Shown piece after piece: positions 5,141 to 20,950 of a stretch of DNA of 64,000 nucleotides. Each line of letters opens with the position of its first letter. Position 1 is the first letter of the stretch. Both the position numbers and the translations under genes were made by a program. The stretch is from Brachyspira suanatina (lineage in GTDB: Bacteria; Spirochaetota; Brachyspiria; Brachyspirales; Brachyspiraceae). The stretch is from assembly GCF_001049755.1 (NCBI RefSeq), contig NZ_CVLB01000001.1, forward strand, positions 1,816,995-1,880,994. Direction: 5' to 3'. The notes below the pieces were generated by a model that was not told the DNA's origin, ran no database searches, and worked only from the letters and a program-made list of their open reading frames with translations.

Positions 5141-6736
5141 TTAAATATCTCTAAGAAGAACTATATCTTTATATTTAATAGTTGTATTTCCTCTGGGTAT
5201 AACAGTTCCACCTTCCCTTTTTATCATAACTATTAAATTATTTTTAGGTAAATTTAAATCTTTTAATTGCTTATCTTTCCAAGGATGACGATTATTAATA
5301 TGTATCTCTCTAAGACTAATATCATAATATTTAGTTTTTTTAGCATTAAGTATAACAACATCCCCCTGCTCTATTACAGTTTTACCATGAGGAATAATAG
5401 TACTATCTCCCCTTTCAACTGTTACTATAATAGATTCTTCAGGAAGTTCTATTTCCATAATAGGTCTTCCAACCCAATGATGTGTAGGAGGTATTTTCAC
5501 CTGTATAAGCTCCATATCTGAATCATCAACATAGTCGTTGAAAGTTTTAAGTACATCTTCATCAGAGTCTACCAAATCAAGCTTTTTAGCTATTATAGGA
5601 AGCAATGTACCCTGAAGCAATACAGATATTATAGCTAGGAAAAATACCACATGAAATATATCATAACTTATAGAATTATTATTAACTATTACAAATATAG
5701 CAAATACTATAGAAGCTGCTCCTCTAAGTCCTGCTGCCATAACAAGAATCTGCTTTTTCAATGATATTTTAAATGGTGTTAATATGGCAAATACAGCTAT
5801 AGGTCTTGCTGCTAATGTTACAAATAATGCTACATAAATAGAAGTTGGTGCTACACTTAATATTCTTGAAGGAAAAGATAAAAGTCCAAGTAAGAAAAAC
5901 AGAACCATTTGCATAAGACCAGTAACACCATCAAAGAAATGAACTAAAGCAACTTTATTTTTAATCTTTGTATTTCCCAAAACTATACCAACTACATAAA
6001 CAGTTAAATATCCGTTTCCTCCTATAACAGAAGAAAAAGAATATGAAAGCAAAGCTACAGCAAGTACAAATATAGTATCAAGTCCATTAATAGGAAATCT
6101 GAACCTTTTTAACATATTATAAGCCATAAAAGATACAGCCGCTGCAACTGCCAAAGCAAAAACTATTTGAGAAAAAACCATATAGGCAATAGCTAAAGGA
6201 GATGTAAGAGTTTTTCCTATAAGCCCTAAAAATATAACTGTAAGCATATAAGACATAGGGTCATTACTTCCGCTTTCAAGCTCAAGCAATGAAGCAAGTC
6301 CGTCTTTAAGGTTCAAACTCCTAGAACGAAGTATTGAGAACACTGAAGCAGCATCTGTTGATCCTACAACAGAACCTATTAAAAAGCTTTCAAAAAAATT
6401 TAATTTAAGCAAATAATGACATAATAATCCTGTAATCATAGATGTTATAAAAGTACCTACAAATGAAAGGAGAAATGCCTGCTTTGATACAGGTTTGGCA
6501 GCTTTCCAATTAGTGCCGAATCCTCCGTAAAACATAATGAATATCAATGTTATAGTACATAGTTCTTCAGCAATTTTATAATCATTAAACTCTATTTTTA
6601 AAATACCATCTGTACCAAAAACCATTCCCAAAACTAAGAAGAGTAAAAGAGATGGTACACCTACTTTAACCGAAATTTTACTTACTATTATGCATAGTAT
6701 AATTATTATAGAAGATAACAATATAGATGAATTCAT
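5141..6736 (-). CDS. NhaP2/CvrA-type cation:proton antiporter
   Basis: This 531-residue membrane protein has about 12 hydrophobic segments across residues 1-390, followed by a soluble C-terminus. The CPA1 family signature is visible as GSTDAASVFSILR and LELESGSNDPMSYM, the latter carrying the ion-binding Asn-Asp. The tail holds two TrkA-C-like domains, beginning about residue 408 (ELIQVKIPPTHHWVG) and 472 (LREIHINNRHPWK). This combination is typical of K+(Na+)/H+ antiporters such as NhaP2, which regulate cytoplasmic K+ and pH through ligand binding at TrkA-C. The ion cannot be decided from sequence. AGG lies 8 bases before the ATG. The gene is monocistronic, and the array's first promoter diverges from its 5' side. 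Confidence 0.9.
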   Translation of the reverse strand: MNSSILLSSIIIILCIIVSKISVKVGVPSLLLFLVLGMVFGTDGILKIEFNDYKIAEELCTITLIFIMFYGGFGTNWKAAKPVSKQAFLLSFVGTFITSMITGLLCHYLLKLNFFESFLIGSVVGSTDAASVFSILRSRSLNLKDGLASLLELESGSNDPMSYMLTVIFLGLIGKTLTSPLAIAYMVFSQIVFALAVAAAVSFMAYNMLKRFRFPINGLDTIFVLAVALLSYSFSSVIGGNGYLTVYVVGIVLGNTKIKNKVALVHFFDGVTGLMQMVLFFLLGLLSFPSRILSVAPTSIYVALFVTLAARPIAVFAILTPFKISLKKQILVMAAGLRGAASIVFAIFVIVNNNSISYDIFHVVFFLAIISVLLQGTLLPIIAKKLDLVDSDEDVLKTFNDYVDDSDMELIQVKIPPTHHWVGRPIMEIELPEESIIVTVERGDSTIIPHGKTVIEQGDVVILNAKKTKYYDISLREIHINNRHPWKDKQLKDLNLPKNNLIVMIKREGGTVIPRGNTTIKYKDIVLLRDI

Positions 6737-6886: not shown

Positions 6887-6915
6887 TTGATTTTTTGTTT
6901 GTCATAATTTATCAT
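6887..6915 (+). promoter_or_regulatory. promoter of lipoprotein array unit 1
   Basis: TTGATT at 6887-6892 and TATCAT at 6910-6915 have a 17-base spacer, followed by the array's conserved AT-rich leader (AAAAAATAACAATACATAC). Confidence 0.6.
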
Positions 6916-6951
6916 TCCATAAAAAATAACAATACATACATTGGGTACTAT

Positions 6952-8928
6952 ATGAAAAATGTTATTTTTGTAATTACAGCATTTATTTTAGTGATTGCTG
7001 TAATTTCATGCGGCGGAAACAAAGAAACAAATCAATCAGAACAAAATACTCAAACTAATCAAAAATCACAAAACAACAATACACAATCTCAAAATATTCA
7101 AACTAATACATCACAAACAAATAATCAAAAAGAATTCTTTGATATGAAATATGTTTATAAAGGTATTAGAGCAGATAAAACCAAATTTGATGAAAAGCTT
7201 AAAAAATTAAGAGAAAATAATGAATATGCAAAAAGGAATTTTGATTTTCTTAATAGGAAATTTGCAAATGATGATGAAAGAAAAAAATATTCTATAGAGT
7301 TTATATCAAATGTTAATTATGCTACATTAGATCTGGAATTCTTAATAAGCTGGGGTAACTGGGGTATATATAGTGAAGTTGAAGATTATTATGCTGTTGG
7401 ATATTTATATGTTGATCAAAATTTAGCATTAAAAAAAGCAAGAGAAGAATTATTAAAATTAAATAAAAAAGATGCTGATGTTTATTTAGCTTTATTCTTA
7501 TCTCATTTTGCTTGCGATTCGCTTTATTATTTTGAAGAAGAGAAAAAATATTTAACAGAATGGAAAAAAGCAGGCGGAACTAATATATCTATGATGATAG
7601 AAAAGTATGATGATGATAATGCTTATAGTAATAAAATGAAATTAGTTGATTATATAATAGAAGCTCCCAATTCTTTAAGAGCAGAAAAATTAGTTGCTGA
7701 TGCTTATAAAGATAATTTCTATAAGTACATTGTAAAAGATAATGGATATATAGATTTATTCAATGAAAATAATTATTCTTTAACTTCAATTGAATTGGAA
7801 GGTACAGCCCGTTTATCTTCAGTAGAAATAGCAGAAGAAATAGGCAATACAAATATAATGAAGAAATATATAAAAACTTATATAAATAATAGATTAGCTA
7901 ATGATGATATACAAGACTATTTAGAATATTATCAAAATTATTACAATATTAATGCCGTTTATTGTTATGACGGTTGGAATAACCTTAATTTACTTGAGTT
8001 TAAAAAGAATACATTTTTAATTGAAAGCACTATGAAGGGATTAGTAAATATGCATTATTATAATCCTGATTTTATAAAAGATAATTTATATGCTCCATTT
8101 AAAGAAATAAAAAATTATAATTTCAGACTTGTAGATATAGATAAAGTAAAATCTGCTGAAATTAATTCGATTTCTACAAATGATTTGAAAGATTATACTA
8201 AAGACTCTAAATTTATAGATTCAGGCAATTTTGATATAAAACAATATTCATCTTATATAGCTAGCAACATGTATTATCCTTTACATAGCGTATCTTTCTT
8301 CTTATGTGATATCAATAATGACGGCAAAGAAGAATTAATGCTTTCAGGAAAATATACGAGTTCTACTGGAAGAGGCGGTATAGCACATTATACTTTACTT
8401 TTAAAAGATAATTTGGAAATAGATTTTGATTCAGAAACAGGACAGTTTATTAATTATCGAGATTTTCAAGATTTGGGATGTACTCAAAAAATATACACAG
8501 AAAATGGCAAAAATAAAATGTTTTTATTGGATACTCTTAATAATGAAGCATATAATATATTTATTGATAATAATGAAATAAAGAATGCAGATTATTTTGA
8601 TTATATTACATATAGTTATCAGCCCAAATTGGAATGGAAAGGAAGTATACTTGACGGAGTACCTGAAGGAGCTTTAAAAACTGATGCAAGTTTTGATATG
8701 TCTAAAGCAGAGAATGCATCAGACAAAGCAATAGTGTCCGATAGAACTTTAAGAGTAGCTGATAAACTTATAAGCGATGCCTACTTTGCTAAAAAGACTA
8801 CTTTGGATAAACAAGGTCAGGAAGAATTATTAGAACAAAGAAGAGCGGAAATAAAAACTATTCAGGAAGCAAAAGGCGATATTAAAGCAATAGAAGCTGA
8901 GATGCTTAAGATTTTGAATATACAATAA
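6952..8928 (+). CDS. array lipoprotein copy 1 with LprI-like C-terminal domain
   Basis: This protein has 658 residues from the ATG at 6952, which is preceded by GGG. A TTG 57 bases upstream would place extra residues before a normal signal peptide and is rejected. Layout: signal peptide with lipobox AVISC; a Gln/Asn/Thr-rich linker to about residue 58; a charged helical module starting KEFFDMKYVYKG; a long central domain; a loop DINNDGKEEL that resembles Ca-binding FG-GAP/VCBS turns; and residues ~576-658 with SFDMSKAENASDKAI and SDRTLR. That last part resembles the LprI/DUF1311 domain, but its conserved cysteines are replaced by Met and Val. It is probably a membrane-anchored or surface lipoprotein of unknown function. 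It is nearly identical to the broken copy at 16089-18071. Confidence 0.85.
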   Translation: MKNVIFVITAFILVIAVISCGGNKETNQSEQNTQTNQKSQNNNTQSQNIQTNTSQTNNQKEFFDMKYVYKGIRADKTKFDEKLKKLRENNEYAKRNFDFLNRKFANDDERKKYSIEFISNVNYATLDLEFLISWGNWGIYSEVEDYYAVGYLYVDQNLALKKAREELLKLNKKDADVYLALFLSHFACDSLYYFEEEKKYLTEWKKAGGTNISMMIEKYDDDNAYSNKMKLVDYIIEAPNSLRAEKLVADAYKDNFYKYIVKDNGYIDLFNENNYSLTSIELEGTARLSSVEIAEEIGNTNIMKKYIKTYINNRLANDDIQDYLEYYQNYYNINAVYCYDGWNNLNLLEFKKNTFLIESTMKGLVNMHYYNPDFIKDNLYAPFKEIKNYNFRLVDIDKVKSAEINSISTNDLKDYTKDSKFIDSGNFDIKQYSSYIASNMYYPLHSVSFFLCDINNDGKEELMLSGKYTSSTGRGGIAHYTLLLKDNLEIDFDSETGQFINYRDFQDLGCTQKIYTENGKNKMFLLDTLNNEAYNIFIDNNEIKNADYFDYITYSYQPKLEWKGSILDGVPEGALKTDASFDMSKAENASDKAIVSDRTLRVADKLISDAYFAKKTTLDKQGQEELLEQRRAEIKTIQEAKGDIKAIEAEMLKILNIQ

Positions 8929-8945
8929 TTTTTAATTGTTTAAAT

Positions 8946-8985
8946 AAAAAGTGCATGCATTATATATGTATGCACTTTTTTTATT
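8946..8985 (+). terminator. array terminator hairpin, unit 1
   Basis: AAAAAGTGCATGCAT (8946-8960) pairs with ATGTATGCACTTTTT (8966-8980), then TTATT. Near-copies of this hairpin end four other units of the array. Confidence 0.85.
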
Positions 8986-9011
8986 GATAAAAATATACAA
9001 ATTTCATAAAC

Positions 9012-9040
9012 TTTACTTTTATAATTATTTTTTGTATAAT
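9012..9040 (+). promoter_or_regulatory. promoter of the Rpn-type gene
   Basis: TTTACT at 9012-9017 and TATAAT at 9035-9040 have a 17-base spacer. The ATG at 9047 is only 6 bases past the -10 box, where transcription itself should start, so the message is predicted to be leaderless. Confidence 0.65.
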
Positions 9041-9046
9041 AATATT

Positions 9047-10012
9047 ATGAGAGATTTTGATAAATTAAAACAAATATTAAATGAACCAGTTACCATTGAA
9101 AATTTAAATAGAATTAATGATTATTTTATACGCTATTTGTTTTCGCATGCGGGCAATGAAAATATAGCTTTAAATTTTATTAATGCAGTATTTAAAGATT
9201 TAGACTTTGAAACTTTTAAGAAAATAGAAATATTAAATCCTTTTAATATTGCAGAAAATTATGATGAAAAAGAAAGCATTGTTGATATAAAGGCTACTAC
9301 AGAAAAAGGAATAACTGTTTTAATAGAAATACAATCCAGAGGAAATGAAGATTTTGTAAAAAGAGCTTTATATTATTGGGCTTATAATTATAGTTCTAGT
9401 TTAAATAGAGGTTCTTTTTATGATGGATTAAAGCCAACTGTAAGTATTAATATTACAAACTTTATACTAACAGATGAAGATAAAGTGCATAGCTGTTATA
9501 TATTAAAAGAATTAAATAATAATAAGATTTTAACAGATCATTGTCAACTTCATTTTGTTGAGCTTCCTAAATTCAATTTTAACGATATTAATAAAATAGA
9601 AAATATTGATAATATACATAGAGAATTCATTTCTTGGGTAAAATTTTTTTATATAAAAAATTATGAGCGTCTAGTAAATTTATTTACTAGACTCAAAAAG
9701 CGAATAATTTTTTATTTATAAATTGGGGAAGATATGTCTATCTTAATGAAAGAAAATACTATATTTGAGGAAGTAGAAAAGAAATGCCGTACTTTTGTTA
9801 ATGATAGTCCTGTAATGGATAAGTATAAAAAACGAGAAGTAGATACATATTTCTTTAATAAGAGTATGGAGTTGGATATAAAGAAAGCTAAAGAAGAAGG
9901 TATTAAAGAAAATCAAATATTAACAGCTAAAAATGTGAAAAAAGAAAATATAGATATTAATATTATAAGTAAAATAACAGGATTGAGTATAGAAGAAATA
10001 AAAAATTTATAA
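9047..10012 (+). pseudogene. Rpn-family PD-(D/E)XK nuclease/transposase-like gene, interrupted by an in-frame stop
   Basis: The 5' part (224 residues, 9047-9721) starts MRDFDKLKQIL. It contains a PD-(D/E)XK-type core with SIVDIKA and VLIEIQ (Asp ... Glu-x-Gln), followed by RALYYWAYNYS. This fits the Rpn recombination-promoting nuclease group (PDDEXK_2). The 3' part, from about 9722, continues in the same reading frame (IGEDMSILMKENTIFEEVEKK...) and ends with the usual Lys/Glu-rich tail and an SIEEIKNL helix. The join region holds a palindrome (9669-9692) inside a larger imperfect inverted repeat and a TAA at 9719-9721. I infer that a small palindromic insertion broke one gene; separate translation of the 3' part from the ATG at 9734 (GGGGAAG upstream) remains possible. 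Confidence 0.75.
9653..9715. repeat. palindromic element inside the Rpn-type gene
   Basis: Bases 9669-9679 (GTCTAGTAAAT) are exactly complementary to 9682-9692 with a 2-base loop. Outside them, ATAAAAAATTAT at 9653-9664 is the exact reverse complement of ATAATTTTTTAT at 9704-9715. The unpaired parts between the arms are 4 and 11 bases long. Family comparison suggests the gene should be short here, so this looks like an inserted miniature element. I cannot see a second copy in this window. Confidence 0.6.
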
Positions 10013-10031
10013 TAAATATAAAAGTTATAAT

Positions 10032-10074
10032 AAAAAAGTGCTTGCATATTTTTTATATGTATGCACTTTTTTTA
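10032..10074 (+). terminator. array terminator hairpin after the Rpn-type gene
   Basis: AAAAAAGTGCTTGCATAT pairs with ATATGTATGCACTTTTTT, with one mismatch and one G-T pair, followed by TATT. It is a diverged copy of the hairpin at 8946. Confidence 0.8.
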
Positions 10075-10094
10075 TTATGAAAAATATTTTTTAA

Positions 10095-10123
10095 TTGAAA
10101 TTTTGATAGTTTTAATTTATTAT
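10095..10123 (+). promoter_or_regulatory. promoter of lipoprotein array unit 2
   Basis: TTGAAA at 10095-10100, a 17-base spacer, and TATTAT at 10118-10123. Confidence 0.65.
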
Positions 10124-10155
10124 ACAAAAATCAAAATACTTACGGACGGTTTAAT

Positions 10156-12084
10156 ATGAAAAATTTTATTTCTATAATTGCAGCATTTATTTTAATGATC
10201 GCTATTATTTCCTGCGGAGGCGGAAACAAAGAAGCAAATCAAACATCACAAAATACCAACTCTCAAACTTCATCAGACAATCAAAGTAAACAAACAGATA
10301 ATCAAAAAGAATTCTTTGATATGAAATATGTTTATAAAGGTGTTAGAGTCGATAAAGCTAAATTTGATGAAGAGCTTAAAAATTTAAGAGAAAATAATGA
10401 ATATGCAAAAAGAAATTTTGATTTTCTTAATAGGAAATTTGCAAATGATGATGAAAGAAAAAAATATTCTATAGAGTTTATATCAAATGTTAATTATGAT
10501 CCATTTAGTGAAACATTCAGCAGTTGGGATAAATATAATGAAGATTTGACAGATTATTATGCTGATGAACATTTATATGTTGATCAGAATTTAGCATTAA
10601 AAAAGGCAAGAGAAGAATTATTAAAATTAAATAAAAAAGATGCTGATGTTTATTTAGCTTTGTTCTTATCTCATTTTGCTTGCGATTCGCTTTATTATTT
10701 TGAAGAAGAAAAAAAGTATTTAACAGAATGGAAAAAAGCAGGCGGAACTAATATATCTATGATGATAGCAAAGTATGATGATGATAATGCTTACAGCAAT
10801 AAAATGAAATTAGTTGATTATATAATAGAAGCTCCTGATTCTTTAAGAGCAGAAAAATTAGTTGCTGATGCTTATAACAATGGTTTCTCTAGATATATTG
10901 CAAAAAATAATGGATATATAGATTTATTTAATGAAAATAATTATTCTTTAAGTTCAATTGAATTGGAAGGTACAGCTCATATAGCTTCAGTAAATATAGT
11001 ACCGGAAATACTTAATACAAATATAATAAATAAATATTTAAAAACTTATGTTACAAATAGACTCAGCAATGATAAATTATATTTTGATGATGCGGAGTAT
11101 TTTAGAAATTATTATGATCATAATAATGAAGATGCTTATGACGGATGGAATGGGCTTAGTTTTCTTCAGTTTAAGAAGAATACATTCTTAATTGAATCAA
11201 GAGTAAATATGCATTATTATAATCCTGAGTTTATGAATGATCATATATATGCTTCATTTGAAGAGGTAAAAAATTATAATTTCAGACTTGGAGATATAGG
11301 TGAAGTAGAATCTGCTGAAATTAATTTAATTTCTACAAATGATTTGAAAGATTATGCTAAAGGCTCTAAATTTATAAGTTTCGGTAAATTTGATGAAGAA
11401 AAATATTTGGAGTATATAGATGAAACAATGGGTTGGCGTGTATATCCATCTTTCTTTTTATGCGACATCAACAATGATGGTAAAGAAGAATTAATGCTTT
11501 CAGGGGATTATGATTATGGCGGAGGAAGAGGCGGTACAGTGAATTTTACTTTACTTTTGAAAGAGAATTTGGAAGTAGATTTTGATTCAGAAATAGGACA
11601 GCTTATTAATAATCAAGATTTTCAGGATTTAAATAAAAGTCAAAAAATATATACTGAAGACGGTAAAAATAAAATGTTTTTGTTAAATGAAGCTTCTAGT
11701 GAGGCTTTGGATATATTCATTGATAATAATGAAATAAAGAATGCAGATTATTTTAATTATATTACATATAGTTATCAGCCAAAATTGGAATGGAAAGGCA
11801 CTATACTTGACGGAGTACCTGAAGGAGCTTTAAAAACTGATGCGAGCTTTGATATGTCTAAAGCAGAAAATGCATCAGATAAAGCAATAGTGTCAGACAG
11901 AACTTTGAGAATGGCTGATAAACTTATAAGCGATGCATATTTTGCTAAAAAAGCTACTTTGGATAAAAAAGGACAGGAAGAATTATTGGAGCAAAGAAGA
12001 GCAGAGATAAAAACTATTCAGGAAGCAAAAGGCGATATTAAAACAATAGAAGCTGAGATGCTTAAGATTTTGAACATACAATAA
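10156..12084 (+). CDS. array lipoprotein copy 2 with LprI-like C-terminal domain
   Basis: This is an intact 642-residue member of the array family. It has a signal peptide with lipobox AIISC and a Ser/Gln/Asn linker. The N-terminal helical module (KEFFDMKYVYKGVRVDKAK) is almost identical to that of copy 1. The central part (about 115-400) diverges much more, which is where the copies differ most. The acidic loop CDINNDGKEELMLSG follows, and then residues 560-642 with SFDMSKAENASDKAIVSDR form the LprI/DUF1311-like end with Met and Val in place of its cysteines. The coiled C-terminal helix is rich in Glu/Lys. The export signal and lipidation are clear; the function is unknown. It has its own promoter and terminator. 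Confidence 0.87.
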   Translation: MKNFISIIAAFILMIAIISCGGGNKEANQTSQNTNSQTSSDNQSKQTDNQKEFFDMKYVYKGVRVDKAKFDEELKNLRENNEYAKRNFDFLNRKFANDDERKKYSIEFISNVNYDPFSETFSSWDKYNEDLTDYYADEHLYVDQNLALKKAREELLKLNKKDADVYLALFLSHFACDSLYYFEEEKKYLTEWKKAGGTNISMMIAKYDDDNAYSNKMKLVDYIIEAPDSLRAEKLVADAYNNGFSRYIAKNNGYIDLFNENNYSLSSIELEGTAHIASVNIVPEILNTNIINKYLKTYVTNRLSNDKLYFDDAEYFRNYYDHNNEDAYDGWNGLSFLQFKKNTFLIESRVNMHYYNPEFMNDHIYASFEEVKNYNFRLGDIGEVESAEINLISTNDLKDYAKGSKFISFGKFDEEKYLEYIDETMGWRVYPSFFLCDINNDGKEELMLSGDYDYGGGRGGTVNFTLLLKENLEVDFDSEIGQLINNQDFQDLNKSQKIYTEDGKNKMFLLNEASSEALDIFIDNNEIKNADYFNYITYSYQPKLEWKGTILDGVPEGALKTDASFDMSKAENASDKAIVSDRTLRMADKLISDAYFAKKATLDKKGQEELLEQRRAEIKTIQEAKGDIKTIEAEMLKILNIQ

Positions 12085-12096
12085 TTTTAATAGTTT

Positions 12097-12140
12097 AAAA
12101 AAAGTGCATGCATATTTTTTTATATGTATGCACTTTTTTA
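12097..12140 (+). terminator. array terminator hairpin, unit 2
   Basis: AAAAAAAGTGCATGCATA pairs with TATGTATGCACTTTTTT around an A/T-only loop; copy of the hairpin at 8946. Confidence 0.85.
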
Positions 12141-12160
12141 TTGGTAAAAATATTTTGTAA

Positions 12161-12189
12161 TTGAAATTTTAATTATTTTAATTTATCAT
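12161..12189 (+). promoter_or_regulatory. promoter of the ankyrin lipoprotein gene
   Basis: TTGAAA at 12161-12166 and TATCAT at 12184-12189 with 17-base spacing. The leader that follows (AAAAAATAACAATACAT) is shared with unit 1. Confidence 0.65.
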
Positions 12190-12221
12190 AAAAAATAACA
12201 ATACATGAAGAGGGTAAAAAC

Positions 12222-13895
12222 ATGAAAAATATTATTTCCATTATTTCTATTTTTGTTTTAACGGTTTCGATAATTTCCTGCGGAGGCGGTAACAAAGAAA
12301 CAGAACAAACAGAAAATACTCAAACTAATCAAACAGAAACTAATAAAGTATATGTTAATCCAACAACTACAAATGAAAATCATAATACAGATATTGATAT
12401 TAACATTGATACAACTAAATATACTAATGAATATATTCAAGGTACAGAAATGGATCCTATACCTACAGGATATAAAAAAATAGATGAAATACTTAATGAA
12501 CATAAATATAAAGCACCAATATACGAAATATCAAAATTATTGGCAGAGGAAGGCTTGGAAGGAAAAATCACTGAAATGACAAATTTTGGTGATAAATATA
12601 TATATCAAGATTCTACTCCTTTGTTTTTGGCAGTACAATTCGGATACAATGATTTAGCAAAAGAGCTTATAAAAGAAGGTGCTGATGTTAATGCCAGAGC
12701 AAGCGGTATGGAAACAGAAACAGAAGGCGGTCTTGATATGCTTTACTATGCTGTTAGAAATAATAATCCTGAAATGACTAAAATCTTAATTGATAAAGGA
12801 CTTGATAAAAATAGAGATTATGGTTATGAATATTCTACTTATTTGACAGATATTGCTATTGGCAACAACAATCTTGATATACTTAAACTTCTTGTAAAAA
12901 GAGGAGATTCAAAAGAAACTTTAATTCCTGATGCAGTAAGAGAAAATAATATAGAAATGGTTAAATATTTATTATCTATAGGACAAGATATAGATGCACA
13001 AAGATTTTTTGACGGTTTTTGGGTTGATTCTCCTTTGAAAGTAGCAGCTGAAAACGGATATATAGAAATGGCTAAATTTTTAATTGATGAAGGAGCAAAT
13101 TTAAACTCAGCTGATGATTATATGCTTTATGCATATAATAATTATGATATAACTAAATTATTAGTAGATAATGATGTTTTTAATCTTAATACTAATACAA
13201 CTAGAGAAGAAGCTATAGAATTAGTAAAAGACGGCAAATATTATGAAATAGAAAAATTATTATTAAGTGAAGATTCAAATAATATAGACGGATATGATGA
13301 ATTAATGAATGCTATATCTAAAGGCGATATGAAAGCATTAGAAAAACTTGTAAAAGATGATACTGATTTGAATAAACAATATGATAAGATTACGCCTCTT
13401 GGTTTAGCTGCTGCTAGAAATGATAGAGAAATGGTTAAATTCCTAGTAGAGAAAGGTGCTGATATAAATTTAGAAGACGGATACGGATATACTCCTTTAA
13501 TAATAGCAATGAAGTATCGTAATATTGGTTTAGCTAAAGATATTATTGATTTGAAGCCGGATTTAAATGCTATATGTTCAGCAACAGGAGATACTCCTTT
13601 AACATATTTAGTAGATAAAGTGAAATTTGGATCAGATATTTGTTATTATTTGATAAAAAATGGTGCTGATGTAAATAAAAAAAATAATAACGGAGATACT
13701 CCATTAATAGTTTCCGTACAAAATTTTATTTTAAGTTATGGTATATTAGGAGTTCTTATAAATATGGGTGCCGATTATAACATTAAAAACAAAGAAGGAA
13801 AAACAGCTATGGATATTGTTATGGAAAAAGATGACAAAGCAACACTTTATCATTTAAATAATCCTGACGATTTAGAATACTATCTTACTATATAA
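12222..13895 (+). CDS. ankyrin-repeat lipoprotein
   Basis: This 557-residue protein has a signal peptide (MKNIISIISIFVL) and lipobox SIISC, then a Gly/Asn/Thr-rich linker of about 60 residues. From about residue 130 it is built of ankyrin repeats, with signatures such as TPLFLAVQFGYNDLAKELI, KEGADVNAR, TPLGLAAARN and NGADVNKKNNNGDTPLI. I count roughly nine or ten units, some degenerate around residues 300-345. Ankyrin stacks bind other proteins, so this is likely a lipid-anchored interaction protein facing the periplasm or outside. Its first ~30 residues, promoter, leader and terminator resemble those of the neighbouring LprI-like lipoproteins although the rest is unrelated, so the export and expression parts look shared. 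Confidence 0.9.
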   Translation: MKNIISIISIFVLTVSIISCGGGNKETEQTENTQTNQTETNKVYVNPTTTNENHNTDIDINIDTTKYTNEYIQGTEMDPIPTGYKKIDEILNEHKYKAPIYEISKLLAEEGLEGKITEMTNFGDKYIYQDSTPLFLAVQFGYNDLAKELIKEGADVNARASGMETETEGGLDMLYYAVRNNNPEMTKILIDKGLDKNRDYGYEYSTYLTDIAIGNNNLDILKLLVKRGDSKETLIPDAVRENNIEMVKYLLSIGQDIDAQRFFDGFWVDSPLKVAAENGYIEMAKFLIDEGANLNSADDYMLYAYNNYDITKLLVDNDVFNLNTNTTREEAIELVKDGKYYEIEKLLLSEDSNNIDGYDELMNAISKGDMKALEKLVKDDTDLNKQYDKITPLGLAAARNDREMVKFLVEKGADINLEDGYGYTPLIIAMKYRNIGLAKDIIDLKPDLNAICSATGDTPLTYLVDKVKFGSDICYYLIKNGADVNKKNNNGDTPLIVSVQNFILSYGILGVLINMGADYNIKNKEGKTAMDIVMEKDDKATLYHLNNPDDLEYYLTI

Positions 13896-13906
13896 AAAAT
13901 AATAAA

Positions 13907-13952
13907 ATAAAAAGTGCATGCATATTTTTTTATATGTATGCACTTTTTTTAT
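13907..13952 (+). terminator. array terminator hairpin, ankyrin unit
   Basis: AAAAAGTGCATGCATA pairs with TATGTATGCACTTTTT across an A/T loop, followed by a T-run and ATTC; copy of the hairpin at 8946. Confidence 0.85.
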
Positions 13953-13968
13953 TCTTAAAAATATTTTG

Positions 13969-13997
13969 TTGAAAATTTAATTATTCTAATTTATAAT
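13969..13997 (+). promoter_or_regulatory. promoter of lipoprotein array unit 4
   Basis: TTGAAA at 13969-13974, a 17-base spacer, and a perfect TATAAT at 13992-13997. The same block recurs at 16028-16056. Confidence 0.7.
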
Positions 13998-14029
13998 GCG
14001 AAAACTACAATACATACGTGGGGTACTAT

Positions 14030-15958
14030 ATGAAAAATGTTATTTTTGTAATTACAGTATTTATTTTAATAATTGCTGTAATTTCATGCGGCGGAAACAA
14101 AGAAACAAATCAATCAGAACAAAATACTCAAACTAATCAAACATCACAAAACAACAATGCACAAAATACTCAAACCAATACTTTACAAACAAATAATCAA
14201 AAAGAATTCTTTGATATGAAATATGTTTATAAAGGTGTTAGAGTAGATAAATCTAAATTTGATGAGAGGCTTAAAAATTTAAGGAAAAATAATGAATATG
14301 CAAAAAGGAATTTTGATTTTCTTAATAGGAAATTTGCAAATGATGATGAAAGAAAAAAATATTCTATAGAGTTTATATCAAATGTTAATCATTCTCCTTT
14401 TGAAGCAGATTTCTATAAGCCTGATGAATATGATTATTATGCGGCTGAATATTTATATGTTGATCAAAATTTAGCATTAAAAAAAGCAAGAGAGGAATTA
14501 TTAAAATTAAATAAAAAAGATGCTGATGTTTATTTCGCTTTGTTCTTATCGCATTTTGCTACAGATTCGCTTTACTATTTTGAAGAAGAAAAAAAGTATT
14601 TAACAAAATGGGATAAAGCAGGCGGCACTGATATATCTATGATGATGTCAAAAGGTTATGATAATAATAATACTTATATAAAAAAAATGAAATTAATTAA
14701 TTATATAATAGAGGCTCCTAATTCTTTAAGTGCAGAACAATTACTTGCTTATGCTTATAACAATGATTTAAGTTATTATATTTTAAGAGAAGACGGATAT
14801 ATAGATTTATTTAATGAAAATAATTATTCTTTAATTTCAATTGTAGATGTAGGTAAATATAAGGTCTCTTCATTAAATATAGTACCAGAAATAGTTAATA
14901 CAAATATAATGAACAAATATATAGAAACTTATATAAAAAATAGATTAAGTAATGATAATATTAATAAAGATTTAGATTATTATCAAAATTATTATAATCT
15001 TGATACTGAAGATGCTTATGATGGATGGAATGGACTTAGTTTTCTTCAGTTTAAGAAAAATACATTTTTAATTGAACCAAAAGCAAAGATGCATTATTAT
15101 AATCCTGAGTTTATAAAAGATCATTTATACGCTTCATTTGAAGAGATAACAACTAATTTCAGACTTGGAGATATAAGTAATGTAAAATCTGCTGAAATTA
15201 AGTTAATTTCTACAAATGATTTGAAAGATTATACTAAAGGCTCTAAATTTATAAATTCAGGTAACTTTGATAAAGAAAAATATTCTAATTATATAAGTGA
15301 AAAAATTGGGTGGCCTTTGCATTCACCGTCTTTCTTTTTATGCGATATCAATAATGACGGCAAAGAAGAATTAATGGTTTCAGAGGGATATGATTATATA
15401 ACAATAAGAACCAATATAGTGAATTGTACTTTACTTTTGAAAGAGAATTTGGAAGTAGATTCTGATTCAGAAATAGGACAGCTTATTAATTATAATTATT
15501 TTCAAAATTTAAACTGTATTCAAAAAATATATACTGAAGACGGTAAAAATAAAATGTTTTTCTTAGATGTAAATACTGATAAGGCTTTGGATATATTCAT
15601 CGATAATAATGAAATAAAGAATTCAGATTATTTTAATTATTTCACATATAATCCTAAATTGGAATGGAAAGGCACTATACTTAAAGGAGTACCTGAAGGA
15701 GCCTTAAAAACTGATGCGAGCTTTGACATGTCTAAAGCAGAAAATGAATCAGATAAAGCAATGGTATCAGACAGAACTTTGAGAATGGCTGATAGACTTA
15801 TAAGCGATGCATATTTTGATAAAATGGCTACTTTAGATAAACAAGGTCAGGAAGAATTGTTGGAGCAAAGAAAAGCAGAAATAAAAGCTATTCAGGAAGC
15901 AAAAGGAGATATTAAAGCGATAGAAGCTGAAATGCTTAAGATTTTGAATCTACAATAA
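14030..15958 (+). CDS. array lipoprotein copy 3 with LprI-like C-terminal domain
   Basis: This protein has 642 residues from the ATG at 14030, preceded by GTGGGG. A GTG 12 bases upstream is inside that ribosome site and unlikely as a start. The plan is the same as in the other copies: lipobox AVISC, Gln/Asn linker, KEFFDMKYVYKGVRVDK module, diverged centre, DINNDGKEELM loop, and a C-terminal LprI-like domain. Differences include SFDMSKAENESDKAMVSDR at the C-terminal domain and an extra substitution in the acidic-loop flank (MVSEGYDY). It is the most diverged copy in the central domain. It is monocistronic, exported and lipidated, with unknown function. Confidence 0.86.
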   Translation: MKNVIFVITVFILIIAVISCGGNKETNQSEQNTQTNQTSQNNNAQNTQTNTLQTNNQKEFFDMKYVYKGVRVDKSKFDERLKNLRKNNEYAKRNFDFLNRKFANDDERKKYSIEFISNVNHSPFEADFYKPDEYDYYAAEYLYVDQNLALKKAREELLKLNKKDADVYFALFLSHFATDSLYYFEEEKKYLTKWDKAGGTDISMMMSKGYDNNNTYIKKMKLINYIIEAPNSLSAEQLLAYAYNNDLSYYILREDGYIDLFNENNYSLISIVDVGKYKVSSLNIVPEIVNTNIMNKYIETYIKNRLSNDNINKDLDYYQNYYNLDTEDAYDGWNGLSFLQFKKNTFLIEPKAKMHYYNPEFIKDHLYASFEEITTNFRLGDISNVKSAEIKLISTNDLKDYTKGSKFINSGNFDKEKYSNYISEKIGWPLHSPSFFLCDINNDGKEELMVSEGYDYITIRTNIVNCTLLLKENLEVDSDSEIGQLINYNYFQNLNCIQKIYTEDGKNKMFFLDVNTDKALDIFIDNNEIKNSDYFNYFTYNPKLEWKGTILKGVPEGALKTDASFDMSKAENESDKAMVSDRTLRMADRLISDAYFDKMATLDKQGQEELLEQRKAEIKAIQEAKGDIKAIEAEMLKILNLQ

Positions 15959-15971
15959 TTTTAATAGTTTC

Positions 15972-16012
15972 AAAAAAGTGTATGCATTATATATGTATGC
16001 ACTTTTTTTATT
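15972..16012 (+). terminator. array terminator hairpin, unit 4
   Basis: AAAAAAGTGTATGCAT pairs with ATGTATGCACTTTTTT with one mismatch; copy of the hairpin at 8946. Confidence 0.82.
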
Positions 16013-16027
16013 CTTAAAAATATTTTG

Positions 16028-16056
16028 TTGAAAATTTAATTATTCTAATTTATAAT
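16028..16056 (+). promoter_or_regulatory. promoter of lipoprotein array unit 5
   Basis: TTGAAA at 16028-16033, a 17-base spacer, and TATAAT at 16051-16056. The block from the preceding T-run through this promoter is identical to the one before unit 4. Confidence 0.7.
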
Positions 16057-16088
16057 GCGAAAACAACAATACATACAGAGGGTTTATT

Positions 16089-18071
16089 ATGAAAAATGTT
16101 ATTTTTGTAATTACAGCATTTATTTTAGTGATTGCTGTAATTTCATGTGGCGGCGGAAACAGCGGTAACAAAGAAACAAATCAATCAGAACAAAATACTC
16201 AAACTAATCAAAAATCACAAAACAACAATGCACAAAATACTCAAACAAATACTTCACAAACAAATAATCAAAAAGAATTCTTTGATATGAAATATGTTTA
16301 TAAAGGTGTTAGAGCAGATAAAACCAAATTTGATGAAAAGCTTAAAAAATTAAGAGAAAATAATGAATATGCAAAAAGGAATTTTGATTTTCTTAATAGG
16401 AAATTTGCAAATGATGATGAAAGAAAAAAATATTCTATAGAGTTTATATCAAATGTTAATTATGCTACATTAGATCTGGAATTCTTAATAAGCTGGGGTA
16501 ACTAGGGTATATATAGTGAAGTTGAAGATTATTATGCTGTTGGATATTTATATGTTGATCAAAATTTAGCATTAAAAAAAGCAAGAGAAGAATTATTAAA
16601 ATTAAATAAAAAAGATGCTGATGTTTATTTAGCTTTATTCTTATCTCATTTTGCTTGCGATTCGCTTTATTATTTTGAAGAAGAGAAAAAATATTTAACA
16701 GAATGGAAAAAAGCAGGCGGAACTAATATATCTATGATGATAGAAAAGTATGATGATGATAATGCTTATAGTAATAAAATGAAATTAGTTGATTATATAA
16801 TAGAAGCTCCCAATTCTTTAAGAGCAGAAAAATTAGTTGCTGATGCTTATAAAGATAATTTCTATAAGTACATTGTAAAAGATAATGGATATATAGATTT
16901 ATTCAATGAAAATAATTATTCTTTAACTTCAATTGAATTAGAAGGTACTGCCCGTTCATCTTCAATAGAAATAGCAGAAGAAATAGGCAATACAAATATA
17001 ATGAACAAATATATAAAAACTTATATAAATAATAGATTAGCTAATGATGATATACAAGACTATTTAGAATATTATCAAAATTACTACAATATTAATGCTG
17101 TTTATTGTTATGACGGTTGGAATAACCTTAATTTACTTGAGTTTAAAAAGAATACATTTTTAATTGAAAGCACTATGAAAGGATTAGTAAATATGCATTA
17201 TTATAATCCTGATTTTATAAAAGATAATTTATATGCTTCATTTAAAGAAATAAAAAATTATAATTTCAGACTTGGAGATATAGATAAAGTAAAATCTGCT
17301 GAAATTAATTCAATTTCTACAAATGATTTGAAAGATTATACTAAAGGCTCTAAATTTATAGATTCAGGCAGCTTTGATATAGAACAATATTCATCTTATA
17401 TAGCTAGCAACATGTATTATCCTTTACATAGCGTATCTTTCTTCTTATGTGATATCAATAATGACGGCAAAGAAGAATTAATGCTTTCAGGAGAATATAC
17501 GAGTTCTACTGGAAGAGGCGGTATAGCACATTATACTTTACTTTTAAAAGATAATTTGGAAATAGATTTTGATTCAGAAACAGGACAGTTTATTAATTAT
17601 CGTAGTTTTCAAGATTTGGGATGTACTCAAAAAATATACACAGAAAATGGTAAAAATAAAATGATTTTATTGGATACTCTTAATAATGAAGCATATGATA
17701 TATTTATTGATAATAATGAAATAAAGAATGCAGAAGTTTTTGATTATATTGCATATAGTTATCAGCCAAAATTGGAATGGAAAGGCAATATACTTGATGG
17801 AATACCTGAAGGAGATTTAAAAACTGATGCCAGCTTTGATATGTCTAAAGCAGAGAATGCATCAGACAAAGCAATAGTATCAGACAGAACTTTAAGAGTA
17901 GCTGACAAACTTATAAGCGATGCGTATTTTGCTAAAAGGGCTACTTTAGATAAACAAGGTCAGGAAGAATTATTAGAACAAAGAAGAGCAGAAATAAAAA
18001 CTATTCAGGAAGCAAAAGGAGATATTAAAGCGATAGAAGCTAAAATGCTTAAAATTTTGGGTATACAATAA
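16089..18071 (+). pseudogene. array lipoprotein copy 4, broken by one nonsense mutation
   Basis: The gene reads MKNVIFVITAFILVIAVISC (lipobox AVISC) and matches copy 1 almost base for base through VNYATLDLEF. At 16503-16505 copy 1 has TGG (Trp) and this copy has TAG. After the stop the same frame stays open to the TAA at 18071 and again follows copy 1 closely, including the DINNDGKEELM loop and the LprI-like end (SFDMSKAENASDKAIV). So it is one gene with a single G-to-A change, giving a 138-residue truncated lipoprotein; an internal restart could make a cytoplasmic fragment. Its promoter block comes from the unit-4 type and its body from the copy-1 type, a recombination mosaic. A sequencing error could also explain the stop. 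Confidence 0.85.
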
Positions 18072-18079
18072 AATAAATC

Positions 18080-18124
18080 AATCCCTTATATTTAATATAA
18101 AACTATATTAAAATATAAGGGATT
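18080..18124. terminator. hairpin ending the lipoprotein array
   Basis: AATCCCTTATATTTTA-like arm at 18080-18099 pairs with the arm ending AATATAAGGGATT at 18124. It lies between the array (plus) and the XRE gene (minus), so it probably stops transcription from both sides. It is unrelated to the other array terminators. Confidence 0.65.
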
Positions 18125-18158: not shown

Positions 18159-18578
18159 TCAATCTATGATATTTTTCAAATCCCTTATTATAGTATCTAT
18201 ATTAGATAACTGCAAAGCCGAATAATTTTTAAGTTTATTTGCTATATATAAAAGTTTCTTAGTTTTTTCTATATGATCATAACTAAATAATATAGCTATA
18301 GGCACATTCAAAGCATTAGCTATTTTATTTAAATTTATTATAGATATGTTTCTTTTACCTACCTCAACACTTTGAAGATATTTAGCTGATATTCCAGACA
18401 TTTCTGCTATTTCTGATATTGTTTTAGTCTGTGATTTTCTTATAGCTCTTATATTTTTTCCAACAGAAGATATAAGCTCATCATCTTCTATCCATCTCTC
18501 TTTATTAGTATTATCTTCTTCTTTATTATCACTAAGCATATTATTATAAAAAGGTTTCTTTAAATTAGTAGTAAGCAT
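18159..18578 (-). CDS. XRE-family transcriptional regulator
   Basis: This protein has 140 residues from the ATG at 18578, which has GGAGG 7 bases upstream; a TTG at 18584 would sit on that ribosome site. A poorly conserved acidic N-terminus of about 40 residues is followed by a Cro/cI-type helix-turn-helix (VGKNIRAIRKSQ, then ISEIAEMSGISAKYLQSVE and INLNKIANALNVP). The C-terminal helical tail may mediate dimerisation. It binds DNA, but its targets are not evident. Its ribosome site lies within the last codons of radC, so radC and this gene are co-transcribed and coupled. Confidence 0.88.
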   Translation of the reverse strand: MLTTNLKKPFYNNMLSDNKEEDNTNKERWIEDDELISSVGKNIRAIRKSQTKTISEIAEMSGISAKYLQSVEVGKRNISIINLNKIANALNVPIAILFSYDHIEKTKKLLYIANKLKNYSALQLSNIDTIIRDLKNIID

Positions 18579-18580
18579 AC

Positions 18581-19282
18581 TCAAACCTCCGCATTATGTT
18601 TGTATTTGTCAAACATACCATCTTCCCTAAAACTATAAAAAGAATTACCGGCAACTATAATATGATCTATCATTTTTATTTCTACCATTAAAAATGCTTT
18701 ATATAAAACCTTTGTAATTTCAATATCCTCTTTTGATGGTTTGGATATACCAGATGGGTGATTATGAGATATTATAACATAACTTGCTCCTAATGATAAT
18801 GACTTTTCTACTAAATCCCTTGGATATATAGTAGCAGAATCTATTGTGCCTCTGAATATATGATCCATAGATATGAATCTTTTATTTACATCTAAACAAA
18901 TAATAGAAAAAGTTTCAAATTTTAATTTTCCTAATTTTATAATAAGATAATTAATTAAATCTTTTTTCTTTATATGAGGGGAAGCTACTTTCAAACTGCT
19001 CAGTAAATAATACTCCAAAATAGAAGGAATACTTTTTATTAGACTAATCTTTTTTGAATTAAGCCCCTTAACCTTTGACAGTTCTTCTTCTGAAGCATTA
19101 ACTATATTATGCAGATTGTAAAAATTATAATAAAGTTTTTCTACTATAGTATTTGCTTTCTCTAAGGATATGCCATTAGAGATAATTGAAGCTAATATTT
19201 GTTTTTCATTCACTATATCAGCATTACTGCTTGCTAAGGCACTACTGAATTTTGTATTATCATTATAAAAATCATTATACAT
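18581..19282 (-). CDS. radC: RadC family JAB-domain protein
   Basis: It has an N-terminal helix-hairpin-helix-like region (LSKVKGLNSKKISLIKSI) and a C-terminal JAB/MPN-type domain with the metal motif ISHNHPSGISKPSKED. RadC proteins carry the JAMM metal-site pattern, but despite the name a DNA repair role is not established. I prefer the ATG at 19282 because AAGGA lies 7 bases before it; an ATG at 19288 is too close to that site. The length (about 233 residues) is normal. It overlaps the XRE gene's translation signals. Confidence 0.9.
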   Translation of the reverse strand: MYNDFYNDNTKFSSALASSNADIVNEKQILASIISNGISLEKANTIVEKLYYNFYNLHNIVNASEEELSKVKGLNSKKISLIKSIPSILEYYLLSSLKVASPHIKKKDLINYLIIKLGKLKFETFSIICLDVNKRFISMDHIFRGTIDSATIYPRDLVEKSLSLGASYVIISHNHPSGISKPSKEDIEITKVLYKAFLMVEIKMIDHIIVAGNSFYSFREDGMFDKYKHNAEV

Positions 19283-19432
19283 ACGCATTTCCTTAATAAA
19301 TTATAGTATAGCCTTAGTTAAACAAATTCTTTTTTAAAAATAAGCCATTTATTAAAGAAAATAAACAGTATATATTTAACTTTTATAACTTTTTTAAAAA
19401 AATTATCATTATTATAAAAAATTTATATAATA

Positions 19433-20950
19433 TCAATAAGATAATGTATATATTAATTTTATTCTTCCACTTGATTCTGCACCATTATTTTCACCAATAG
19501 CAGAATCTTCTATTACAGCATAGAAAACTTTAGTTTCACCTTTTTTCAAAGTAAATCCCTGAGTGTATTCTACTATTTTTGTATTATTGGCTCCGGTTAT
19601 ATCTTTAAAAATAAAAGCGTCTTGAGTACTGTCATAATTAAAATTAATATCAGGAGAATCATAATCAGTTATCAGAGTTTCAGTACCAATAGATAAACCT
19701 TTTTTATCATACATAGAAATTTTAGAATCTAAAGATATACTAATAGTATTTTTATCTTTATCTTCATACTGAATATCTGTGGTATAAATAGTGGAAAGAA
19801 TACTTTTAGTTTCCCCTATATTCAATTTGAATAAAGAATCAAAAAATAAACTAGGTTTTTCTTTTGAAGTTATAGTGTTTATTGTTTTTGTTCCATTAAT
19901 GGTATTAGCTATTCTCATATCATAGCTTAAACCAGCATGATCTAAATATTCATCACTTCCAATAGTTTTATCATTAAAACTTCTAGCACTGATATTTTCT
20001 ATTTCTAAATTTTGAATCTGCAAAGCTATTTTATTTTTCTCTATAACTTTCATAGGCATATAAGGAGAACGTCCAGGTTTTCCAATATCAGCAATATCCC
20101 TTGATAAATCTATTTTACTGCCTTCTACTCTAGGAGCATAACTATTATCATTTGCTATAGATAAAGTGCACCAAGGATATATCTCTATAGTACCATCAGA
20201 ATGAACTATACCTACAGGATCATATTCATAAAAATAAGTAAACCCATCAATAGCAAACTTAATCTGACTATTTAAATTAGCACTGTCAGCGCTAGCTTCC
20301 CAGCCTAATTCAACAGATCCCCATTCTATAGGGGCGGGTATTCCTAAAATTGATTTCCATTTCACAGGTATAGCAAAAGCAAATACTAATTTTGAATAAC
20401 TATCTATTGCTATTAAATAATTATCAGTGTCAAGTCCGGCACTTCCTGTAAATCTATAAAACCAAAATCTTTTTAATCTATCGCTTTTATTGTATGCACT
20501 TGTTGATGAGAAAGTAGGATTCATATTCTTATACATATAATATTTAACTTTATTAACTGTGAACCCTGCTGCTTTAGTATTAGTTCCGTCATAATAATAT
20601 TCATTTCTGGAAAGATCATTAATTTTCCAAGTATCATCTTTTATAAGCATATATTTAGGTTCATTTTTTAATCCAAAAGAAGCAGCTATAACATATTCAC
20701 TGTCAAGATCAAGAGTAAAGTTTCTATAATTAGGAGTATTCCAAGGCTTTTTTCCGTCATCATTATTAAAAGGATCTTCACTAGGATCTAAAATATCCTC
20801 TCCTCCAATATCAGGTTCATCTGTACCATTTCCGCTGCTTGCACTACTCATTTGCTGATAATAATATCTGGGACTAAAATAACTTCCGCAAGTATTTAAA
20901 AATATTAAATTAAATATTAACAATAAAATAATAAATAAAGTATTTTTCAT
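19433..20950 (-). CDS. large lipoprotein, FxPRYYY family
   Basis: This 505-residue protein has a signal peptide and a lipobox-like LNTCGS, then SYFSPRYYY and a Ser/Gly/Asp-rich linker. The rest looks beta-rich, with a motif FYEYDPVGIVHSDGTIEIYP. The protein at 35786-37477 shares this plan (HFFNPRYYY, a Ser-rich linker, AFYEYDPIGYVTANGAVILY and KLVFAFAI/KFIFAFGA), so the two are paralogues. I do not recognise a known domain. It is exported and probably lipid-anchored. It is monocistronic, and the flanking intergenic DNA is AT-rich without a clear terminator. Confidence 0.8.
   Translation of the reverse strand: MKNTLFIILLLIFNLIFLNTCGSYFSPRYYYQQMSSASSGNGTDEPDIGGEDILDPSEDPFNNDDGKKPWNTPNYRNFTLDLDSEYVIAASFGLKNEPKYMLIKDDTWKINDLSRNEYYYDGTNTKAAGFTVNKVKYYMYKNMNPTFSSTSAYNKSDRLKRFWFYRFTGSAGLDTDNYLIAIDSYSKLVFAFAIPVKWKSILGIPAPIEWGSVELGWEASADSANLNSQIKFAIDGFTYFYEYDPVGIVHSDGTIEIYPWCTLSIANDNSYAPRVEGSKIDLSRDIADIGKPGRSPYMPMKVIEKNKIALQIQNLEIENISARSFNDKTIGSDEYLDHAGLSYDMRIANTINGTKTINTITSKEKPSLFFDSLFKLNIGETKSILSTIYTTDIQYEDKDKNTISISLDSKISMYDKKGLSIGTETLITDYDSPDINFNYDSTQDAFIFKDITGANNTKIVEYTQGFTLKKGETKVFYAVIEDSAIGENNGAESSGRIKLIYTLSY

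Follow-up and report, generated by a model that had tools for sequence, protein, structure and literature searches.

Shared cassette borders in a tandem lipoprotein, ankyrin and Rpn gene array of Brachyspira suanatina suggest reshuffling by homologous recombination

Why do neighbouring genes of unrelated families carry the same promoters, signal peptides and terminators? This question is raised by a gene array of Brachyspira suanatina (genome G000; 3,258,009 bases, 34 contigs), examined here in a window of 64,000 nucleotides (nt) (C1:1816995–1880994). Six units, all in one orientation and comprising four paralogous lipoproteins of 640–660 amino acids (aa) (A1–A4), one ankyrin lipoprotein and one Rpn-type nuclease, lie between a CPA-type antiporter gene and a helix-turn-helix (HTH)/RadC pair, on a 2.24 Mb contig among chromosomal genes. 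The comparison sample consisted of 26 Brachyspira genomes (one genome per species), with gene order charted in 30 loci across the genus. The best explanation, to which we give a probability of about 0.75, is that self-contained expression cassettes stand in tandem and are reshuffled by homologous recombination at repeated borders. It draws on the repeat anatomy, on unit order that varies between fixed flanks, on breakpoints at hairpins, on at least one module swap and on one body replacement.

The original prediction, made from the sequence of this locus, described TTGAnn-17-TATnAT promoters in five of six units, five units ending in copies of one GTGCATGCAT hairpin, and signal peptides common to unrelated bodies, and all three descriptions hold. 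The promoters are found at a fixed distance upstream of A1, A2, the ankyrin gene, A3 and A4; five stable hairpin copies begin at about 8946, 10033, 12099, 13909 and 15972; and A-type and ankyrin lipoproteins share signal peptides. The features of the array and its flanks, in window coordinates, are as follows (hairpins from folding).

6887–6915, plus: A1 promoter, TTGATT-17-TATCAT
6952–8928, plus: A1, 658-aa lipoprotein, lipobox VISCGG
8946–8980, plus: shared hairpin terminator, copy 1
9012–9040, plus: Rpn promoter, TTTACT-17-TATAAT, outside the shared motif
9047–9721, plus: N-terminal part of the Rpn nuclease (PDDEXK_2, TIGR01784; profile match), ending early; the whole Rpn unit, with both open reading frames (ORFs), spans 9047–10012
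9650–9720, plus: 70-nt palindromic insertion breaking the Rpn gene
9734–10012, plus: C-terminal part of Rpn, a separate ORF (profile match)
10033–10074, plus: shared hairpin terminator, copy 2, GTGCTTGCAT variant
10095–10123, plus: A2 promoter, TTGAAA-17-TATTAT
10156–12084, plus: A2, 642-aa lipoprotein
12099–12139, plus: shared hairpin terminator, copy 3
12161–12189, plus: ankyrin lipoprotein promoter, TTGAAA-17-TATCAT
12222–13895, plus: ankyrin-repeat lipoprotein, 557 aa (Ank_2, 3.8e-66)
13909–13948, plus: shared hairpin terminator, copy 4
13969–13997, plus: A3 promoter, TTGAAA-17-TATAAT
14030–15958, plus: A3, 642-aa lipoprotein
15972–16008, plus: shared hairpin terminator, copy 5, GTGTATGCAT variant
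16028–16056, plus: A4 promoter, TTGAAA-17-TATAAT
16089–18071, plus: A4, A1-type lipoprotein gene with TAG at 16503–16505 and a chimeric 3′ end
18080–18124, plus: array-ending hairpin, different from the shared one
5141–6736, minus: CPA-type antiporter gene, left flank
18159–19288, minus: HTH/RadC pair, right flank

These border elements recur across the genus. The TTGAnn-17-TATnAT promoter is present in 45 of 51 lipoprotein cassettes (Markov control expectation 0.36 of 51), with 28–36 nt between the end of the −10 box and the ATG (mode 32, nearly all 31–33). The shared hairpins fold with z values of −5.7 to −7.5, the sixth hairpin, after A4, being of a different type; an Rfam search of the array region returned no match. 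The shared hairpin occupies 59 of the 70 cassette-to-cassette gaps (median gap 133 nt). It ends genes of four or more unrelated families, namely A, ankyrins of both the lipoprotein and the non-lipoprotein kind, and Rpn. Rather than being spread evenly over the genome, these terminators are confined to the gene families of the arrays: the hairpin 3′ arm TATGTATGCACTTTTT has eight exact matches in the 3.26 Mb of G000 (five in the main array, three at a second locus), and 60 of the 61 exact copies of this 16-mer in the 26 genomes lie at loci of these families, with the remaining copy at a contig edge (G018:C26). Genomes without the A lipoprotein family mostly also lack the hairpin. The lipobox signal peptide MKN...ISCGG occurs in A1, A2, the ankyrin protein, A3 and A4, all of which are predicted lipoproteins.

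Unit order, far from being identical everywhere, differs in every species compared between the same flanks. From the CPA gene to the HTH/RadC pair, G000 has A1-Rpn-A2-Ank-A3-A4, G007 has A-Rpn-Ank-A-A-A, G009 has AnkL2-A-Ank-A-A and G004 has Ank-Rpn2-A-AnkL2-Rpn-A. The second locus (L067 1895–9840; G000:C1 ~1191.9–1199.8 kb) carries the same hairpin; there, secreted ankyrin genes and one for an ankyrin lipoprotein come after a membrane-protein gene (MSENK...). In other species, cassettes have passed between this locus and the main array: AnkL2 stands at the second locus in G000, G007 and G023 and inside the main array in G004, G005, G006 and G009. In other species the A/ankyrin/Rpn arrays are located elsewhere, and the HTH/RadC site there is without an array within the flanks covered.

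Where did the exchanges break? At the second locus, G000 and G007 have ankS1-T-ankS2-T-AnkL2 (T, hairpin) and G023 has ankS1-T-Rpn2-T-AnkL2; in this replacement of ankS2 by Rpn2, the sequences stay identical as far as the left hairpin's T-run and are so again from the right hairpin's 5′ arm onward. Between ankyrin cassettes with differing downstream neighbours, homology stops a median of 59.5 nt past the stop codon (middle half 53–67; all pairs); between those with the same downstream neighbours it extends to a median of 259 nt, the hairpin ending at ~48 nt. Family A boundaries are looser in the same test, in which pairs mix paralogues.

Exchange of the 5′ module and of lipoprotein bodies is also seen. 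In G015, A2 and AnkL2 have unrelated bodies behind a leader (70 nt) and signal-peptide DNA (66 nt) that are 100% identical, within a near-identical block of ~190 nt (terminator, promoter and signal peptide) that runs from the hairpin start to about codon 27. The leader and signal of A2 in G000 are 90% identical over 188 nt to those of AnkL2 in G009. A4 of G000 is a mosaic (maximum-chi-square permutation test, p = 0.0002, the lowest value the test can give): it is 97% identical to A1 apart from a TAG at codon 139, with one 435-nt identical run, and its body is A1-type (96–100% over most of its length), whereas G007, G009, G004, G005 and G006 have an A2-type gene at the last position. The 3′ end and flank of A4 match those of the last-position genes in those five genomes, and the stretch from the hairpin 3′ arm through the A4 promoter is identical to the corresponding stretch before A3. 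Recombination between the repeats, at the level of species, is supported by the hairpin breakpoints and by one clear leader/signal-peptide swap.

Each cassette combines a promoter of its own with an ORF, in most cases for a lipoprotein with a cross-family signal peptide and linker, and with the family-specific hairpin terminator, and each unit would probably give one transcript. The substrate would be near-identical border DNA of ~45 bp (terminator) or, between lipoprotein units, ~190–230 bp (terminator, promoter and signal peptide), together with the paralogous bodies. Over species-level time, recombination may delete, duplicate, replace and move cassettes, and an existing promoter/signal-peptide module may sometimes acquire a different body. 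In the simplest route, homologous recombination, presumably of the general (RecA-type) kind, would act on the direct repeats that border the cassettes, with gene conversion among the A paralogues in addition; a dedicated enzyme is not needed, since several shuffled arrays lack Rpn and most of the ~20 Rpn genes in each genome are found outside arrays. Judged by their lipoboxes, the proteins would act in the cell envelope or at the surface. In a bolder form of this proposal, which seems to us possible but doubtful, the cassette system would extend across the genus, one terminator hairpin would itself be the preferred recombination site, and unrelated genes (lipoproteins, secreted ankyrins and nuclease toxin–antitoxins) would be exchanged in an integron-like manner without an integrase at several chromosomal loci.

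Several points weigh against reshuffling at the borders. In 44 of 51 cases the nearest leader in another genome stands before a body of its own class; 5′ modules thus usually stay with their body, and exchange of modules is occasional, not rampant. The prediction of a common module fitted to varied proteins by recombination is partly supported, by the breakpoints at hairpins and one clear swap. Every cassette has a hairpin, such that alignments cross it by default and breakpoints are resolved only to the hairpin or its edges. The G000 assembly is a draft with manual joins (PMC4603578) and those of G015 and G023 come from metagenome binning; in all three, some of the near-identical repeats could be misassembled; the A1/A4 identity and the G015 shared block are the results most exposed to such error. 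The order differences hold too among G004, G007 and G009, which are assembled in one or two contigs each. Published B. hyodysenteriae strains all retain the 19 annotated WA1 lipoproteins, and their ankyrin counts range only from 48 to 52 in the part of the table covered (PMC4476648), so the process may be slow.

Plain tandem duplication with birth-and-death, in which genes are copied with their flanks and the shared promoters and terminators are passive relics without boundary-specific recombination, would account for the four A paralogues, for the decayed copies (A4 with its TAG, the broken Rpn gene) and for leaders that mostly go with their bodies. We consider it unlikely as a full account, as the terminator is common to unrelated families, and the hairpin-to-hairpin replacement and the identical 5′ module before unrelated bodies require exchange too. 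The paralogue strings with ankyrin and Rpn defence-type genes also recall the recombination-shaped esaG arrays (PMC9484751), and the ankyrin genes match defence-candidate models, such that the locus could be read as a defence or immunity array in which periplasmic or outer-membrane immunity lipoproteins against rival toxins are stacked with an Rpn anti-phage unit, as in polyimmunity loci. However, what PADLOC picked up are generic ankyrin repeats, a cognate toxin was not identified and family A has no match among the immunity families, which makes this reading rather improbable.

The variable lipoprotein bodies and the recent A1/A4 exchange, with its 435-nt run, might instead point to a contingency locus that alters surface lipoproteins within strains during infection. 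Such fast antigenic variation is very unlikely here: the change is seen at species level, the 19 annotated WA1 lipoproteins are all retained across the published B. hyodysenteriae strains (PMC4476648), and a single expression site is absent, each unit having its own promoter. Least probable of all is site-specific action at the hairpins by the Rpn nuclease or another enzyme, with hairpins as integron-like attachment sites. Rpn genes do recur in the arrays (20 copies, two types), and E. coli Rpn proteins are reported to contribute to RecA-independent horizontal transfer (PMC5350276); yet Rpn genes are numerous and dispersed, mostly without this hairpin, shuffled arrays in G009, G011 and G017 have no Rpn at all, and Rpn proteins are reported as anti-phage toxin–antitoxin units (PMC10327210). 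Rpn as a driver of the shuffling was judged unlikely from its dispersed copies and the Rpn-less shuffled arrays.

Do known systems work in this way? Integron gene cassettes share a single orientation and a hairpin at each 3′ boundary, and the Brachyspira cassettes are alike in both respects, but each has its own promoter and its hairpin is a T-tailed terminator. No tyrosine integrase was recognised among the ORFs at 2.8–23.6 kb of the window, no genome-wide integrase search having been made. A closer likeness is found in the erp genes of Borrelia burgdorferi (ospE/ospF/elp, with their 'upstream homology box'), in which many bodies are described as carrying one promoter/leader/localisation sequence, and recombination as frequent (PMC10016077). 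Both systems comprise spirochete lipoproteins with a conserved module of promoter, leader and first residues on unrelated bodies and with intergenic and intragenic recombination, and the conserved promoter and leader before unrelated bodies is matched by A2 and AnkL2 of G015; the two work alike, and no homology is claimed. Unlike erp, which resides on cp32 prophage plasmids, the Brachyspira cassettes are chromosomal and tandem, share a 3′ terminator and include non-lipoproteins (Rpn, ankS). The Staphylococcus aureus esaG and streptococcal tipC strings (PMC9484751) are likewise made of paralogues in tandem, with conserved blocks through which homologous recombination adds or removes copies, but they involve one family with homology blocks inside genes, whereas the Brachyspira border DNA is common to unrelated families and the changes are seen between species. 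The csa1 'gene accordions' of S. aureus (PMC7360770) are tandem lipoprotein genes changing copy number by recombination; there one family's copy number varies within clones, and here composition and order vary between species. The design principle is, by analogy, that of Borrelia erp; what differs is that the cassettes stand in tandem between copies of one family-specific terminator and also admit non-lipoprotein genes.

Searches of open-licence papers found none that describes this Brachyspira array. Mix-and-match lipoprotein design has so far been best known from Lyme disease bacteria, and the array adds another spirochete example, seemingly independent of Borrelia erp, of a single promoter/leader module that serves many bodies, with a family-specific terminator marking cassette edges as an unusual feature. 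Little is known of how envelope proteins diversify in Brachyspira, the agents of swine dysentery and intestinal spirochetosis; the readable array boundaries offer a direct means to follow envelope-protein turnover. Short-read sequencing may miscount the lipoprotein and ankyrin genes here.

What, then, are the proteins in the cassettes? The 'LprI-like' label originally given to the A lipoproteins was not confirmed: LprI (PF07007) had no match at E ≤ 1 in 17 family A members, and the sole match of a genome-wide scan at E ≤ 10 (C1:63182) fell below the cut-off. Those of this array (642–658 aa) belong to an unnamed family with bodies variable in sequence and without relatives in the 367 other genomes of the phylum (393-genome sample). 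An AlphaFold2 model of a 642-aa member (17 sequences) had a mean predicted local distance difference test (pLDDT) value of 41.8 (C-terminal third 52.8), too low for fold searches, and a PDB sequence search gave weak chance-level matches only. Most Brachyspira genomes carrying family A have a ~50% identical relative elsewhere; in G000 this stand-alone gene (L068 5063–7027; 47–49% identical) lacks the hairpin, and it is possibly the ancestral form.

The ankyrin lipoprotein matches Ank_2 (3.8e-66) in eight stretches. Ankyrin proteins of two Brachyspira species are reported in exoproteome and surfaceome fractions (PMC4955376), the entries not being matched to array genes. The Rpn unit matches PF12784 (4.8e-41) and TIGR01784 (2.9e-32; C-terminal ORF 3.2e-09), and its reading frame is not intact in G000, being split by the 70-nt palindromic insertion, which is also found in G015 and, as a diverged version, in G008; nine other array Rpn genes are without it. 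This palindromic element of ~60–70 nt (AAAAAATTATGAGCG-arm-TTTA-arm-...AGCGAATAATTTTTTAT) has >100 copies in 17 of the 26 genomes, often in tandem (window 9650–9720; L103–L107, L116–L122), with arms that vary in sequence yet remain complementary. Of the eight listed copies in G000, seven are within an Rpn gene or immediately 3′ of one. The element resembles repetitive extragenic palindromic (REP) elements or miniature inverted-repeat transposable elements (MITEs).

On the right flank, the radC gene adjoining the array is represented by two overlapping ORFs in G007 (L077 16345–17051). Next to RadC lies a lipoprotein-type gene (window 19433–20950) with no Pfam match and with several nearby paralogues in other species (L148, L149, L152), possibly another expanding family.

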